A stretch of DNA of 64,000 nucleotides. Source: Roseovarius sp. GTDB lineage: Bacteria > Pseudomonadota > Alphaproteobacteria > Rhodobacterales > Rhodobacteraceae. The stretch spans positions 1-64,000 of the forward strand of contig JAJFIA010000005.1 in NCBI GenBank assembly GCA_021775255.1, read 5' to 3'. Numbering within the stretch: position 1 is the first letter of the stretch; each line of letters begins with the position of its first letter. Below are positions 1 to 62,444 of this stretch, in pieces. The notes below the pieces were generated by a model, which had not been told where the DNA came from, made no database searches, and saw only the letters and a list, made by a program, of their open reading frames with translations. Both the position numbers and the translations under genes were made by a program.

Positions 1-1342
<1,342 letters not shown>

Positions 1343-8575: not shown

Positions 8576-8600
8576 CCCCGGCCTCCGAGCCGGGGCCTCC
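8576..8600. repeat. dispersed GC-rich palindrome, copy 1 (CCCCGGCCTCCGAGCCGGGGCCTCC)
   Basis: Near-identical to 22859-22883 and to 62414-62444; lies 22 bp 3' of the dddP stop. Confidence 0.8.
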
Positions 8601-19490: not shown

Positions 19491-20405
19491 CTAAGGCCCC
19501 GGCATGATATAATCCGGGATGATGCCCGCGCGCCTGATAGCCCCGTTTACATCCATCCCGCGCAGGGATCCGAAATCGGTGGTCAGCGCGGTTTTCAGGC
19601 CCATTGCCCGACCGCCAAGGATGTCGGTTTGCAAGGTGTCGCCAACCATCAGGGTCCGTTCGGGCGCAATGCCCTGCCCGATGCGCGCAAGGGCCATTTC
19701 AAACACATTGCCAAAGGGCTTGCCAAAAAATTGCGGTTCGATGCCGGTGGTGTCGGCCAAGCGGTGGGCGTAATGCCCCGGCTCGCGCGACAGGCCGGTA
19801 TCACGCGGGGCCACGATATCAGGATTGCCCACCAGAACCGTGCGGGGATTGTCCTGCAACGACGCCTCAAGCAGGGCCTGCCGATCCTCGTTCCAGATGC
19901 TGCTACCAAGAAAGATAAATGCTTCGGCCCGGTCATAAACGCCGCGATCATCCAGAAGAAAATCGAAACTCAGGGCTTCCAGCTCTTCACGGCCAAAATC
20001 CGCATTGGCCATCAGGCCGTAATGCACTGGCGGCAGGGCGGGCAGGGCGGCAAGCAGAACCTCGCGGCTGCTGAGCACATCGCGGGGCGTGAAATCAAAC
20101 CCAAGATCGCGGTAGCGCTGCATCAGCCTGCTTTTAGGATACCCGGCCGCGTTTGAGACAACCAAAACCTTTTTGCCCATGGCCTTGAGCTGTGCAATCC
20201 GTTCCGGCGCGCCGGGGATCACCTGTTCACCCATGTTGAGAACGCCAAAGGCATCCAGCAGAAAAAGATCAATCTCATCCGCCAATTCCGAAAGGTCGGC
20301 AACATGGCGGCTTTGATCCGGGAATGTGGCCACAGGCAGGCGGTGCCGCGAGGCTTCATAGGCCGAAAAGGCCCATTCGGCGTTTTGCGCCAGCGAAGAT
20401 GTCAT
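19491..20405 (-). CDS. HAD-IIA family hydrolase (TIGR01459-like)
   Basis: DLFLLDAFGVLNMGEQVIPGA, VLVVSNAAGYPKS, MVGDTLQTDILGG; start at MTSSLAQ overlaps the upstream permease stop. Confidence 0.88.
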   Translation of the reverse strand: MTSSLAQNAEWAFSAYEASRHRLPVATFPDQSRHVADLSELADEIDLFLLDAFGVLNMGEQVIPGAPERIAQLKAMGKKVLVVSNAAGYPKSRLMQRYRDLGFDFTPRDVLSSREVLLAALPALPPVHYGLMANADFGREELEALSFDFLLDDRGVYDRAEAFIFLGSSIWNEDRQALLEASLQDNPRTVLVGNPDIVAPRDTGLSREPGHYAHRLADTTGIEPQFFGKPFGNVFEMALARIGQGIAPERTLMVGDTLQTDILGGRAMGLKTALTTDFGSLRGMDVNGAIRRAGIIPDYIMPGP

Positions 20406-21220
20406 CAGATGATGGCTCCGCGCACCTTGGCCGAAACCCATTCACCGATCACCACAGCCAGCAGGATCACGATCAGGATGAGCGACACCTGGCTCCACGA
20501 CAGAATATTGAGCGAGGCATTGAGTTGCAGGCCAATGCCGCCCGCGCCCACCAGCCCCAGAACAGTGCTTTCGCGGATGTTGATATCCCAGCGGAACACG
20601 GCGATGCCGGCAAAGGCCGGCAGGATTTGCGGCACAATGCCATAGACCATCACCTGCCAGCGGCTGGCACCGGTGGCGGCTATGGCTTCAACCTGCACTT
20701 CGCTAATCTCCTCAATCGCCTCGTAAAGCAGTTTGGCGCAAAACCCGATCGAGCGGATAGAGATGGCGATCACCCCGGCAAACACGCCCGGCCCGACGAT
20801 CGACACCAACAGCAGCGCCCAGATCAGTGAGTTGACCGAGCGGGTGGAAACAATGATCAGCAAGGCAATGGGGCGGATAAACATCCGGCTTGGGCTGGTA
20901 TTGCGCGCCGCCAGAAAGGCCACCGGCACCGCCAGCATCAAAGCAAAGACCGTACCCAGTGTGGCGATGTTCACTGTATCCCAGATCGGCCGCCAGAGCG
21001 TGTTGATATAAGACCATTTCGGCGGCCAGGCCCGGGTCAGGATATCATGGGTGGCATCGGGCGCGGTTGAGACATAATACCATTCCGTCTGACCCGAGAT
21101 TTGCTGCCATGCCAGCACAAAGGCAATGGCCCCGGTCATCCACATGGCCCAGGTGACAAATTGCCCCTTACGATCCCGGACCTGCCAGATTTTCCGTCCG
21201 TTTTTTTCAATGACCGGCAT
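20405..21220 (-). CDS. phnE: phosphonate-type ABC transporter permease (PhnE family)
   Basis: Multi-TM with [77 protein letters not shown]. Confidence 0.9.
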   Translation of the reverse strand: MPVIEKNGRKIWQVRDRKGQFVTWAMWMTGAIAFVLAWQQISGQTEWYYVSTAPDATHDILTRAWPPKWSYINTLWRPIWDTVNIATLGTVFALMLAVPVAFLAARNTSPSRMFIRPIALLIIVSTRSVNSLIWALLLVSIVGPGVFAGVIAISIRSIGFCAKLLYEAIEEISEVQVEAIAATGASRWQVMVYGIVPQILPAFAGIAVFRWDINIRESTVLGLVGAGGIGLQLNASLNILSWSQVSLILIVILLAVVIGEWVSAKVRGAII

Positions 21221-22032
21221 TATTTGATCCTCTCGCGGATGACGCCTGACAGGTATTCAAGGGTCATGACCGTGGCGATGATGATCAGCAGAATCGCGGC
21301 AACGCTGTCAAATTCATAGCGGTCAAAGGCGGTGTTCAACGTGGCCCCGATACCGCCCGCGCCGACCAGCCCCAGCACCGCACTTTCGCGAAAATTGATA
21401 TCCAGCCGGTACATTGAAAGCCCGATAAGGCGCGGCATGACCTGTGGCTGAATGCCGAAATTGATCCATTGCCACCACGAGGCACCGGTGGATTCAACCG
21501 CCTCGGCCGAGACCATGTTCATGCTTTCAATATCTTCCGCCAGCAGTTTTGACAAAAATCCGATGCTGGCAAAGCTAAGGGTCAAAAACCCGGCGAGTGG
21601 GCCAAAGCCAAATATTTTCACCAGAATGATCGCGACGATGATCTCATTCAAGGCCCGCGAGATGGCGACGATAAACCGGCACACCAGATAGATCGGCAAA
21701 GGAGCAATATTGCGCGCAGCCCCCAGGGCGATGGGAATGGATATGCCAATGCCCACAACGGTCGAGGCCACGGTCATCACCACGCTTTCCACCAGCCCGG
21801 CATAAATATCCGACCAGCGCGAGGTGAAATCAGGGTTGGAAAACCCGGCAATAAACTGCCAGCCGCGATCCAGCCCGCGATAGACCCGCGCCCAGTTGAT
21901 CTCAATCGTTGAGAAGGCGAAATAGAGATAGATCAGGCTGCCGATGATCAGCGCCCAGCGCAGCAGGCTGTTGCTGATGAACGCAGGCTTGCGCCACGTT
22001 GTGCCGATCATTGCGCTCAGATCAGCACTCAC
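21220..22032 (-). CDS. phnE: phosphonate-type ABC transporter permease (PhnE family), second copy
   Basis: [62 protein letters not shown]. Confidence 0.9.
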
Positions 22033-22823
22033 GCCTCAACCCCCTCATCATCGGTTTCATCTACCTTTTCAATCGTCGCTTCCCAGTCTTCCTCGCCGTA
22101 GATGCGGGTCAGCATATCGGGGGTCAGATCATCCGGGGCACCATCAAACACGATCGCGCCCGCCTCAAGCCCGACAACGCGCTGCACAAACATCTTGGCC
22201 AGTGCGACATCGTGAATATTGATAATCGCGGCCAGTTTGCGCTCATTACACAGCTCAACAATCAGGCGCATGATCTGACGGCTGGTTTTGGGATCCAATG
22301 AGGCGGTGGGCTCATCCACCAGCAACAGCGCCGGATCCTGAATCAGCGCGCGGCAAATGCCCACCCGCTGCCTTTGCCCGCCGGATAGCTCATCAGCGCG
22401 CTTATCGGCCATATGCAACAGGCCCACACGGTCCAGCAGGCGATAAGCGTTATCCACATCCGCTTGCGGGAATTTGCGCAGGAGTGACCGCCAGAACCCG
22501 ACATAGCCCAAACGGCCGGAAAGCACGTTTTCCATTACCGTCAGGCGCTCGACCAGTGCATATTCCTGAAAGATCATCCCCATGCGCCGCCGCGCGCGCC
22601 GCAAGCCGCCTGAACTGAGCCTGGTAAGTTCAATCCCATCAAGCGTGACCGAGCCGCTGGTGGGCTGTACCAGCCGGTTAATACAGCGAATGAGGGTTGA
22701 TTTCCCTGCCCCTGACGGGCCAATCAGGGCCAGAACCTGCCCCTGCGGCACCTCAAGATCAACCGATTTCAGAGCCTTATCGCCGGTACTATAGGTCTTG
22801 ACCAGCTTATTGAGCTTCAACAT
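22029..22823 (-). CDS. phnC: phosphonate-type ABC transporter ATP-binding protein
   Basis: Walker [54 protein letters not shown]. Confidence 0.93.
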
Positions 22824-22852
22824 GCCTGCCCCCTGTCGTTTATGTAGTTCAT

Positions 22853-22924
22853 CCCACGCCCCGGCCCCCGAGCCGGGGCCTCCTGTTCAGCCAAGAGGTC
22901 CCGGTTCGGGGGCCGGGACGTGGG
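22853..22924. repeat. nested inverted-repeat element: copies 2a/2b of the dispersed GC-rich palindrome
   Basis: 30-bp arms 22853-22882 and 22895-22924 complementary at 27/30 positions; each arm itself contains a ccccggcc...ggccgggg-type hairpin. Confidence 0.88.
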
Positions 22925-22948
22925 TATCAATTTATACGAATGCTGGCT

Positions 22949-23926
22949 TTATTGGCAGGTGTAGCTGACGCCGTTTGCTGCATCAATTTTACGGATCACA
23001 TCCCAAAATTCCTTATAGTTCATCTTAAGGAACTTGCCTTCGCCCGATTTGGAAAACTCGCGCTCCAGCGATGTGCCTTCCCATTCAAAGTTCAGGAATG
23101 CATTCTGGATTTTTTCCTGCAGCTCGGGGCTGAGGTTGTAAACCGTGCCATAGCCTGTGGTCGGGAAGGTTTGCGATTTATAGATCGAAACCACCTGATC
23201 TGCGGTAATCACATCGCGCAGAATCATCCGGCTTAGCACAGAATTGGCGATCGAGGCCGCCGGATAATCGTGATTGGCGACACCCAGAATGGAATTGTCA
23301 TGTTTGCCGGAAAATACCGCTTCAAAATCGCGGTCCGGGATCATGTCATAATCAGCCTTGAGAATCGCCGATGGTGCCTTGAAGCCGGAATTCGAGGTGG
23401 GCGAGGTAAAGGCCAGTTGTTTGCCCTTGATATCCTCGACCGTCTCAATGCCCGATCCGGGGTAGGTGAGAATTTCCATTTCATAGCCGAAACTGCTGTC
23501 GGGACGCGCCATCAGCGAAAACGGCCGGAAGCCCGCGCAATTTACCGCCAGCGGATTCGAGCCGGTGTTGAAGCCCGCAATATGCAAGCGCCCCGAGCGC
23601 ATCGCCTCGATCTGGGCTGCATTGGATTGCACCGGGAAAAACACAACCTTCTTACCGGTTTCAGCCTCAAGATAGGTCAGGAAATCCGACCACGCTTCTT
23701 TATAAACCGCCGGATCTTCGACCGGTGTATAGGCAAAAACCAGCGTATCAGGATCAATCCATTCGCTGGCATCCGTGGGAATATCGGCAATCAGATCGCC
23801 ATCGGTATCACAATAGCGCTTGTCAAGATCGCCACGCTCGCAATCCTGAGCGCTGGCACCACCGGCAAAGGCCATAGCCAGAGCAAACGCTGTAATGGAT
23901 ACAGTTGTTTTGAGTAAGTTCATCAT
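22949..23926 (-). CDS. phnD: phosphate/phosphite/phosphonate ABC transporter substrate-binding protein (PhnD family)
   Basis: Signal peptide; LVFAYTPVEDPAVYKEAWSDFLTYLEAETGKKVVFFPVQSNAAQIEAMRSGRLHIAGFNTG. Confidence 0.92.
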   Translation of the reverse strand: MMNLLKTTVSITAFALAMAFAGGASAQDCERGDLDKRYCDTDGDLIADIPTDASEWIDPDTLVFAYTPVEDPAVYKEAWSDFLTYLEAETGKKVVFFPVQSNAAQIEAMRSGRLHIAGFNTGSNPLAVNCAGFRPFSLMARPDSSFGYEMEILTYPGSGIETVEDIKGKQLAFTSPTSNSGFKAPSAILKADYDMIPDRDFEAVFSGKHDNSILGVANHDYPAASIANSVLSRMILRDVITADQVVSIYKSQTFPTTGYGTVYNLSPELQEKIQNAFLNFEWEGTSLEREFSKSGEGKFLKMNYKEFWDVIRKIDAANGVSYTCQ

Positions 23927-24191
23927 TCTCTCCCTGTTTTTATTATCTACTAAGCCTACCCAACTTTAATCGCGACACAAGAAAAATACGCATATGCCAA
24001 TATGAAACGCCTTGTTTTATCCTGATTGACCCGGTTGGGACAATTCTCCATGTCTCCCCAGCACGAATCCCTTGACGCCCCCGCCCATAGCGCCTAAAGC
24101 CAACACCTGAAATTAAGGGTGCTGCCCATGGCGGCGCCCGCACTTATTGAATGGGGCCGGATGCCCCCGACCAGATGATGAGGATAGCCCC

Positions 24192-24482
24192 ATGTCGCGC
24201 CGTTGTGAACTGACCGGAAAAGGCCCGATGGCTGGTAATAATTCCAGCCACGCCAACAACAAAACCAAGCGTCGGTTTTTGCCGAACCTCAATGATGTGA
24301 CGCTGCAATCGGAAATTCTGAATCGCGGCATCAAACTGCGTATTACCGCCGCAGCTTTGCGTACGGTTGATCATCGTGGTGGCCTTGATGCCTTCATGGC
24401 GAAATCCAGGGATTCCGATCTGTCGGCCAATGCGCTGAAAGTTAAAAAAGAGATTACCAAGGCGCTGGCCGCAACTGCCTGA
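24192..24482 (+). CDS. rpmB: 50S ribosomal protein L28
   Basis: [33 protein letters not shown]. Confidence 0.98.
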
Positions 24483-45625: not shown

Positions 45626-46777
45626 TCAGCTTTTCATACTATCCCAGAACCCTTTGACCGATGAGAAAAAGCTTTTGCTTTCCGGGTTGTTATCTTCTGA
45701 AAGCGCTTCAAACTCGCGCAGCAGCTCTTTTTGTTTGCCGGTCAGGTTCACCGGCGTCTCAACCGCCAGCTCAATGAACATATCCCCCGCCGCACCTCCG
45801 CGCAGGGCGGGCATGCCCTTGTGACGCAGGCGCATCTGACGCCCCGATTGGCTGCCTGCCGGGATCTTTACCCGGCTGCGGCCGCCATCAATGGTGGGCA
45901 CTTCGATATCGCCGCCAAGGGCTGCCGCTGCCATTGCAACCGGCACACGGCAGAAAAGATTGTTTTCTTCACGCTCGAAAATCGCGTGCTTCATCACATC
46001 AATAAAAATGTAAAGATCACCGGGCGGGCCGCCACGCATACCCGCCTCACCTTCCCCGGAAAGCCGGATACGGGTGCCGGTTTCAACGCCCGCAGGGATG
46101 TTCACACTCAAAGAGCGGTCCTTTTCCACCCGGCCCTGACCATGGCAGGATTTGCAGGGGTTCTTGATGATCTGGCCAATGCCCGAACAGGTGGGGCAGG
46201 TGCGCTCGACAGTGAAAAACCCCTGTTGCGCCCGCACTTTGCCCATGCCCGAACAGGTAGGGCAGGTAGCCGGCTCGCCACCGCCATCGGCACCGGTGCC
46301 ATCGCATTTTTCACAGGCAACCGCCGTTGGCACATTGATGGTTTTTTGCAGGCCGGAAAAAGCCTCTTCCAGCGTCACCCGCAGGTTATAGCGCAGGTCT
46401 GATCCGCGCGCGGCCCGGTTGCGGCCGCCGCCACCACCGCCGCCGCGCCCGCCCATGAAATCGCCGAAAAGATCGTCGAATACATCGGAAAACGCGCTGG
46501 AAAAATCGCCATGCCCGCCGCCGGGGTGGCGGCCGCCTCCGCCCATACCGCCTTCAAAGGCCGCATGGCCAAAACGATCATATGCGGCTTTTTTCTCGGC
46601 GTCTTTCAGAACATCGTAAGCCTCGCCAACTTCCTTGAACGCGGCCTCGGATTTGGGATTGTCGCCATTGCGGTCGGGGTGCAATTCTTTGGCTTTTGTG
46701 CGATATGCCTTCTTGATCTCGTCAGCCGAGGCGCCCTTGGCAACACCCAGAACTTGGTAATAATCACGTTTGGCCAT
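45626..46777 (-). CDS. dnaJ: chaperone DnaJ
   Basis: J-domain MAKRDYYQVLGVAKGASADEIKKAYR, four CxxCxGxG repeats. Confidence 0.99.
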   Translation of the reverse strand: MAKRDYYQVLGVAKGASADEIKKAYRTKAKELHPDRNGDNPKSEAAFKEVGEAYDVLKDAEKKAAYDRFGHAAFEGGMGGGGRHPGGGHGDFSSAFSDVFDDLFGDFMGGRGGGGGGGRNRAARGSDLRYNLRVTLEEAFSGLQKTINVPTAVACEKCDGTGADGGGEPATCPTCSGMGKVRAQQGFFTVERTCPTCSGIGQIIKNPCKSCHGQGRVEKDRSLSVNIPAGVETGTRIRLSGEGEAGMRGGPPGDLYIFIDVMKHAIFEREENNLFCRVPVAMAAAALGGDIEVPTIDGGRSRVKIPAGSQSGRQMRLRHKGMPALRGGAAGDMFIELAVETPVNLTGKQKELLREFEALSEDNNPESKSFFSSVKGFWDSMKS

Positions 46778-46847
46778 CGAGGATCCCTCTTAGTTGGAAC
46801 CGGGGCCGGCCATGCGATGGCCAGCCCCGAAAGTCCCTTCCGGCGCG

Positions 46848-48752
46848 TCAGGCGCGCTTGTCGTCGTCCAGATCCTCAAAATCAGCATCGACAATGTCGT
46901 CTGGCCCGGCTTCATCCGCGGCCATCGGCTCATCATCGCTTTCTTCCTGGCTGGCTTTATAGATCGCCTCGCCAAGTTTCATCGCCGCTTCAGTGACGTT
47001 CTGGATGCCGGATTTGATCTTCTCGGCATTGTCATTTTCCAGCTCATCCTTGAGCGCCACAATCGCCAGCTCAATCGCCTCGATGGTGGTTGGATCAACC
47101 TTGTCGGCATGTTCTTCCATCGCCTTCTCGGTTGAATTGATCAGGCTTTCGGCCTGATTGCGGGCTTCAACCAACTCGCGACGCTCCTTATCGGATTCGG
47201 CATTTTCCTCGGCATCGCGGACCATTTTTTCGATGTCCTCATCCGAAAGCCCACCCGAAGCCTGAATGGTGATCTTCTGTTCTTTGCCGGTGCCTTTATC
47301 CTTGGCGTGAACCGACACGATCCCGTTGGCATCAATATCAAACGCCACCTCGATCTGCGGCATACCGCGCGGCGCGGGCGGGATATTTTCCAGATTGAAC
47401 TGACCCAGGATTTTGTTATCCGCGGCCATTTCACGCTCGCCCTGGAACACCCGGATGGTCACGGCGTTCTGATTATCCTCAGCGGTCGAGAAGACCTGAC
47501 TTTTGTTGGTCGGGATCGTGGTGTTGCGATCAATCAGGCGGGTAAAGACGCCGCCCAATGTTTCAATCCCCAAGCTGAGAGGCGTCACATCCAGCAGCAC
47601 CACATCCTTGACGTCACCTTGCAGAACACCGGCCTGAATGGCCGCGCCCATGGCCACAACCTCATCGGGGTTCACACCCTTATGCGGCTCTTTGCCAAAG
47701 AATTTGGTGACTTCTTCAACCACCCGTGGCATCCGGGTCATGCCGCCGACCAGAACGATCTCATCAATCTCCGAGGCCTTAAGGCCTGCGTCTTTCAACG
47801 CGGCGGCGCAGGGCTTCATCGAGGCTTTGATCAGGTCACCCACCAGGCTTTCAAGCTTGGCGCGGGTCAGTTTCATCACCATGTGCAAAGGCGAGCCATC
47901 CGAGCCCATCGAGATGAACGGCTGGTTGATCTCGGTCTGGGATGAGCTGGACAATTCAATCTTGGCTTTCTCGGCGGCTTCTTTCAGCCGTTGCAGCGCC
48001 ATCTTGTCTTTGGTCAGGTCAACGCCGTGTTCTTTTTTGAACTCATCAGCCAGGTAGTTGACGATGCGCATGTCAAAATCTTCACCGCCAAGGAAGGTAT
48101 CGCCATTGGTGGCTTTGACTTCGAACAGCCCGTCGTCGATCTCAAGCACGGTCACGTCGAATGTGCCGCCGCCGAGGTCATAAACCGCAATCGTATGGGT
48201 GTTTTCCTTGTCAAGGCCGTAAGCCAGCGCCGCCGCTGTCGGCTCGTTGATGATGCGCAGCACTTCGAGGCCTGCGATCTTGCCGGCATCCTTGGTGGCC
48301 TGACGCTGGGCATCGTTGAAATAGGCGGGCACGGTGATCACGGCTTGTGTCACGTTTTCACCAAGATAGCTTTCGGCGGTTTCTTTCATTTTGCCAAGTA
48401 TGAAGGCCGAGATCTGGCTGGGCGAGTATTTCTCACCCTTGGCTTCGATCCAGGCGTCGCCATTGCCGCCGTCAATCACATGGAACGGCATGTTCTTTTT
48501 GTCTTTGGCAAGATCCTTGTCATCCGCCCGGCGGCCGATCAGGCGCTTGACACCAAAGATGGTGTTTTCTGGGTTGGTAACAGCCTGACGCTTGGCCGGT
48601 TGGCCGACAAGGCGCTCATTATCCGTAAAGGCAACAATCGAGGGTGTGGTGCGCGCGCCCTCTGCGTTTTCGATAACGCGGGCCTGAGAGCCATCCATGA
48701 TGGCAACGCAGCTGTTTGTGGTTCCGAGGTCAATACCAATAACTTTGGCCAT
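46848..48752 (-). CDS. dnaK: chaperone DnaK (Hsp70)
   Basis: [53 protein letters not shown]. Confidence 0.99.
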
Positions 48753-50194: not shown

Positions 50195-51012
50195 CTGCGG
50201 GCATCCCAGCTGCTTGAGGCGTGTTGACGGGTGTAAAACTCGGCCATCAAACCAATTACAAGCAAGGCCAGCGAAAAAATGATTGGGTATTCAGCCGAGG
50301 TCGTGCGCGGCACATAATTGACAAACATGAAGCCGCGGGCCTGATCAATCGTGTGAAAAAGCGGGTTCCATTCAAACATCGGAAGCATGAAAGCGGGCAA
50401 TGTATTGGCCACAAACATCTTGCCGGATGCAATCATGTTGATCCTTTGAAAAACGGTTGTGAAGATCGCAACAAAGCCTGGAAACCATGGCTTCATTGAG
50501 AGCAATACCAGCCCGATGGCCACCCCGGAAAGCCAGGCGACCAGCAGCATGCCGTAGGCCCCGGCAGGATCATCAATTTCAAACGGGGTAACAGCCACAT
50601 GATAGGCGAACAGGATAACAAGCAGCGTCAGCGTCTGAATATACAAGGTGCCAATTGCAGCCGCTACAATTGAGACGATCGTATTCATTGGCGCGTGTTG
50701 CATCATCGGCGATGAGGGCCCTTCCGTGCCGGCAATGGCACCAATGGTTTTAATATGGACCAGAAACAGGAAAATCCCCGAGATGATATAAAGCAGGAAA
50801 TCCCCCCGTATATTGGCCTTGTCTATGCCCATGAGCCAGAACATCACATAAAAGGCCAATATAAAAACCACTGCCTGCAACATGTTGCTGACAAGCGCCC
50901 ACAGGGCATTGCCGTGGCCTTTTCTAATATTGCGCACGATCGTATGATAAATCAGCTCGGCCATGCCGAGGGCCGATTGAAACTTTGATTTTCGTTTTAC
51001 CTGGTGAAACAT
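50191..51012 (-). CDS. ABC-2 type polysaccharide export permease (KpsM-like)
   Basis: LWALVSNMLQAVVFILAFYVMFWLMG..., SALGMAELIYHTIVRNIRKGHG; six hydrophobic segments. Confidence 0.8.
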   Translation of the reverse strand: MFHQVKRKSKFQSALGMAELIYHTIVRNIRKGHGNALWALVSNMLQAVVFILAFYVMFWLMGIDKANIRGDFLLYIISGIFLFLVHIKTIGAIAGTEGPSSPMMQHAPMNTIVSIVAAAIGTLYIQTLTLLVILFAYHVAVTPFEIDDPAGAYGMLLVAWLSGVAIGLVLLSMKPWFPGFVAIFTTVFQRINMIASGKMFVANTLPAFMLPMFEWNPLFHTIDQARGFMFVNYVPRTTSAEYPIIFSLALLVIGLMAEFYTRQHASSSWDARR

Positions 51013-62413: not shown

Positions 62414-62444
62414 CCCACGCCCCGGCCCCCGCGCCGGGGCCTCC
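62414..62444. repeat. dispersed GC-rich palindrome, copy 3 (CCCACGCCCCGGCCCCCGCGCCGGGGCCTCC)
   Basis: One base different from 22853-22883 over 31 nt; begins 32 nt after the phosphatase stop. Confidence 0.88.

Follow-up and report, generated by a model that had tools for sequence, protein, structure and literature searches.

A REP-like repeat dimer in the conserved stem-loop slot between phnD and phnC of Roseovarius sp.

The element located between malE and malF of Escherichia coli is a REP; this malE-malF REP element was reportedly described by Newbury et al. in 1987. Among the ABC transporter operons of E. coli, five show slower decay of the mRNA segment encoding the binding protein, and protective 3' structures were proposed as the means; for malE, a structure at the 3' end provides the protection (Dar and Sorek 2018, PMC5927463). 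Dispersed palindromes are also known from other bacteria. CGTC REPs are frequent in alphaproteobacteria, lack a dedicated transposase, and are characterized by an unpaired CGTC tag, a stem opening with A-T pairs and a loop of 4–5 nt (Di Nocera et al. 2013, PMC3733652).

The window analyzed here comprises 64,000 nt of the Roseovarius sp. contig JAJFIA010000005.1. It contains an operon with the gene order phnD-phnC-phnE-phnE, entirely on the minus strand: a gene for a phnD-like substrate-binding protein (22949–23926), proposed to be the protected upstream gene; phnC, encoding the ABC ATPase (22029–22823); and two copies of the permease gene phnE (21220–22032, overlapping phnC by 4 nt, and 20405–21220). 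PhnC and both PhnE copies exceeded the NCBIfam cut-offs. The binding protein scored above the cut-off of TIGR01098 (phosphate/phosphite/phosphonate family) and, at 145 of the 261 bits required, below that of the PhnD equivalog; because the latter was missed, the name phnD is used loosely. Between phnD and phnC, at 22853–22924, lies the element of interest. When re-counted, it showed the figures given in the first-pass annotation, i.e., two inverted 30-nt units, complementary at 27 of 30 positions and separated by a 12-nt loop, 24 nt past the phnD stop, with both genes on the same strand. The distance to the phnC ATG is 29 nt. Unit 1 (CCCACGCCCCGGCCCCCGAGCCGGGGCCTC, 22853–22882, plus strand) possesses a subtype A loop. 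Unit 2 is inverted (CCCACGTCCCGGCCCCCGAACCGGGACCTC, 22895–22924, minus strand), and, compared with unit 1, its outer pair has changed in a compensatory manner to T-A. Each unit has its CCTC end facing the spacer (22883–22894).

Transcribed on the minus strand, the element is predicted to form a hairpin of 31 pairs with −71.3 kcal/mol when folded alone. Within the window, no other close inverted repeat is as long (arms 22853–22885 and 22892–22924, 33 nt, 88% complementary, 6 nt between them). Predicted folding of positions 22820–22960 yielded −84.3 kcal/mol (z −8.0) for the transcribed minus strand and −87.8 kcal/mol (z −9.5) for the plus strand, and in both cases none of 200 shuffles folded as well. 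No Rfam family matched the element, and DNA resembling it was not found in the plasmid collection. As in malE-malF, a stable structure thus lies between the genes for a binding protein and membrane components of one ABC operon, on the same strand. Unlike malE-malF, the repeat has a different sequence and belongs to a different family, and the operon is a different one.

The element proved to be more than a local palindrome, going beyond what had been annotated: two units of a repeat found throughout the genome form a head-to-head dimer here. The consensus, derived from 73 aligned cores in the stretches examined, reads G-YCCCGG-N7/8-CCGGGR-CCTC; the repeat census was based on whole-genome searches together with chosen stretches. 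With the element as a BLAST query, the genome that carries it yielded 61 matches at about 40 places, and exact CCCCGG-N4..10-CCGGGG palindromes occurred 72 times in the genome versus eight times for the reversed control. The cores fall into two loop subtypes, one CCCCCG[A/C]G-like and the other [A/G]C[T/C]TGA[T/C]-like. In 7 of 19 distinct aligned copies, the outer C-G pair was replaced by T-A, with both sides changed every time. According to a rough coding-potential caller, 20 of 42 repeat clusters lie between tandem, 16 between convergent and two between divergent genes, and four inside predicted genes; the gaps of the window, for comparison, comprise 29 tandem, six convergent and ten divergent ones. 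Some copies may be translated, since units within predicted genes (rough gene calls) occur in stretches L037 (3812–3831 and 5210–5229), L040 (1513–1568) and L042 (1543–1562). Inverted dimers, in which two oppositely oriented units have cores spanning 56–62 bp, make up over half of all clusters. The window itself harbors two further single units (8576–8595 and 62414–62444), which lie close to the 3' ends of two genes, encoding a peptidase M24 and a low-molecular-weight phosphatase. In addition, a palindrome resembling the subtype B core without its flanks (CCCCGGACTTGATCCGGGG, 1346–1364) is found about 4 nt upstream of the 5' end of the 16S rRNA (1–1342, minus strand).

As a short multi-copy palindrome that is mostly extragenic near gene 3' ends and forms inverted dimers, the repeat is a REP element in the broad sense, and the REP analogy drawn earlier holds on anatomical grounds, including the inverted dimer between binding-protein and membrane-component genes. 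Multiple copies of short palindromes, conserved unpaired ends and common head-to-head dimers are shared with the GTAG and CGTC REPs (PMC3733652); unlike these, the repeat has the ends CG and CCTC, a stem opening with G-C followed by C-G or T-A, and loops of about 6–8 nt. It matches neither published consensus. Membership in the GTAG REPs was rejected on the basis of the conserved unpaired ends (CCTC reads GAGG on the other strand) and of the absent Y1 transposase, and membership in the CGTC REPs on stem, tag and loop. A Y1 (RAYT-type) transposase (PF01797) was found neither in this genome nor in most repeat-rich congeners, with the positive controls being detected, and among 85 congeners its presence did not correspond to repeat abundance. 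Hence, a RAYT origin of the repeat was also rejected.

The position of the element was then compared with the phnD-phnC junctions of relatives. A first sample comprised 109 junctions, nearly all from Rhodobacterales and including three that belong to other alphaproteobacterial families, and stems were scored by a strict single-helix measure with a simple pair score. A stem scoring at least 22, a threshold reached by 6% of dinucleotide shuffles, was present in 108 of 109 junctions, the remaining one being a 12-nt gap; a score of at least 24 was reached in 104 of 109 versus 3% of shuffles. The slot has a regular geometry, with the stem at a median of 16 nt past the phnD stop and 24 nt ahead of the phnC start. 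The median folding-energy z of the junctions was −2.7, as compared to −0.5 for length-matched segments upstream of phnD and about 0 for coding segments. In a second sample of named genomes, including Hoeflea, Ahrensia, Kiloniella and Limibaculum, 77 of 79 loci possessed a strong stem-loop; the two samples (109 and 79 junctions) share some genomes, and with the relatedness of the genomes their counts are not independent.

The sequences of these hairpins differ between clades, and 94 distinct 10-nt stem-arm sequences were counted across the 108 stems. Within an alignable clade of homologous hairpins, both sides had changed at four of nine stem pairs while 97.5% of the cells remained paired; with the partner slid, pairing was at most 61%. 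The repeat dimer was found in no other junction of either sample, a single palindrome matching the repeat core being present in one (L141) alone, and congeners possess ordinary hairpins at this junction. Thus, the element is a REP-like repeat dimer in a slot where nearly all relatives keep a GC-rich stem-loop of unrelated sequence. Since unrelated hairpin sequences are kept at the same spot, the comparison suggests that the fold itself, and not its sequence, is what matters at the phnD-phnC junction. This bears on a role at the DNA level, in which the palindrome would act as a cruciform or as a binding site for a protein (nucleoid, gyrase) and its location in the operon would be incidental. 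A palindromic, two-fold and genome-wide repeat family would be compatible with such a role; the single short hairpins of unrelated sequence in the slot of the relatives fit an RNA fold rather than a sequence-specific site, and this explanation is regarded as very improbable.

For phnC, a promoter of its own was rejected. A promoter scan, which is weak for this bacterial group, revealed no sigma-70-like site on the minus strand of 20000–24200, and the phnC leader (22824–22852, minus strand) provides only 29 nt. Since this gap is smaller than an ordinary promoter, phnC expression needs read-through of the hairpin, barring a promoter inside or upstream of the element. The main rival explanation is a leaky terminator, by which the hairpin would end some transcripts past phnD, either intrinsically or with Rho, and let the rest reach phnCEE. 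PhnD would again exceed PhnC, but via synthesis rather than decay. Across species, T accounts for 31% of the 8 nt following the hairpins versus 18% overall, at least four of these 8 nt are T in 27 of 108 junctions, and some relatives resemble good terminators, e.g., GGCGGGTC-ttcg-GACCCGCC-TTTTC. However, most relatives lack a T run, a TTT tail occurring in only 15 of 108 junctions. The element itself is followed by no intrinsic-terminator U-tract, its tail ATGAACTA containing two T in 8 nt, and it was not among the sites listed by a terminator scan. Overall, a leaky terminator is considered unlikely as the explanation, albeit one to be taken seriously; given the somewhat enriched T after hairpins across species, partial termination may contribute to the effect of the hairpin.

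Other binding-protein genes were inspected for comparable structures. A stem was present within 110 nt after all ten SBP_bac_8 genes of this genome and after 28 of 30 DctP genes sampled order-wide. The threshold was passed by 102 of 110 binding-protein junctions (45–135 nt) compared with 8 of the 85 tandem gaps of comparable length that follow other genes (pooled Fisher P 3e-35, an overstated value since the genomes are related). The repeat dimer recurs in this genome at a LivK-type/permease junction and at an OpuAC-type/ATPase junction. Orthologues of the LivK-type gene mostly possess ordinary hairpins at the junction, and the seven closest OpuAC-type orthologues (64–82% identical) have a junction of 6–10 nt without a hairpin. 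A hairpin is thus not obligatory, and the repeat replaces a hairpin at some junctions while it is a pure gain at another. Transporter operons account for five of the seven close tandem junctions holding the repeat; dimers were also seen between two permease genes and between ABC ATPase and permease genes (L014 1503–1561 and L021 1503–1561). Two separate observations were made in the window. A strong stem-loop (score 36) lies at 46778–46847 between dnaK (46848–48752, minus strand) and dnaJ (45626–46777, minus strand), a pair for which an excess of the first product is expected, as for a binding protein. Positions 50300–50446 match the Rfam family Cis2_sRNA (RF02645, Ruegeria cis2 sRNA) with 62 bits.

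The simple gain at the OpuAC-type junction would also be expected if the element were a neutral, mobile REP-like dimer that came to lie in a harmless intergenic place without any effect on expression, and the dozens of further genomic copies, of which many are flanked by convergent genes, fit this explanation as well. It is nevertheless judged improbable: the dimer lies where relatives have their hairpin, with similar flank lengths; covariation shows that the hairpins of the relatives are maintained; and three of the seven closely spaced tandem junctions with the repeat follow a binding-protein gene, a share that was counted after the fact.

Taken together, the element is probably of the malE-malF type, protecting phnD mRNA and allowing read-through into phnCEE. 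In the phnDCEE transcript, it would fold into a very stable hairpin and block 3'-5' exonucleases arriving from the degraded phnCEE part, so that a phnD fragment with its 3' end at the hairpin would outlast the remaining mRNA and the binding protein would be made in excess; transcription would continue through the hairpin into phnC. The action of RNase E and 3'-5' exonucleases at this site is assumed from other bacteria, and by analogy we infer a higher PhnD/PhnC ratio due to the hairpin. Excess binding protein is the expected outcome under either protection or partial termination. The repeat may have taken over the role of an older, ordinary hairpin or replaced it. The suggestion of the first-pass annotation that phnD is favored over phnCEE by this logic has gained strong comparative support, as a hairpin is kept order-wide with unrelated sequences and also at other binding-protein junctions. 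As in the E. coli ABC operons with differential decay (PMC5927463), the binding-protein gene would be the stabilized one, with 3' structures at the boundary. The kind of evidence differs: a decay effect was shown for malE-malF, and the five ABC systems of one species were characterized by RNA data, whereas the present case is a sequence-based one, drawn from nearly 190 phnD-phnC junctions and from other binding-protein genes.

This kind of element was already known from E. coli. Added here are the order-wide conservation of the slot with turnover of its sequence, the recruitment of repeat units into the slot, and a repeat family outside the GTAG and CGTC consensuses; a literature search found no earlier report of such elements in Rhodobacterales, which does not prove their absence from the literature. 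More tentatively, with the balance of judgment somewhat against it, the 3' end of binding-protein genes might be a sequence-free structural slot under selection in Rhodobacterales and neighboring orders, into which repeat units have repeatedly been recruited as ready-made stoichiometry elements, in this genome after the phnD, LivK-type and OpuAC-type genes. The comparison provides an order-wide case, built on genome comparison, for the malE-malF idea as a general design rule that an abundant group of bacteria applies to its binding-protein transporters; the rule gives testable predictions across many operons. It also illustrates the turnover of control elements, in which the fold persists and the sequence is swapped, even for a dispersed repeat. 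For models of nutrient uptake, the transporter stoichiometry of Roseobacter relatives is relevant.
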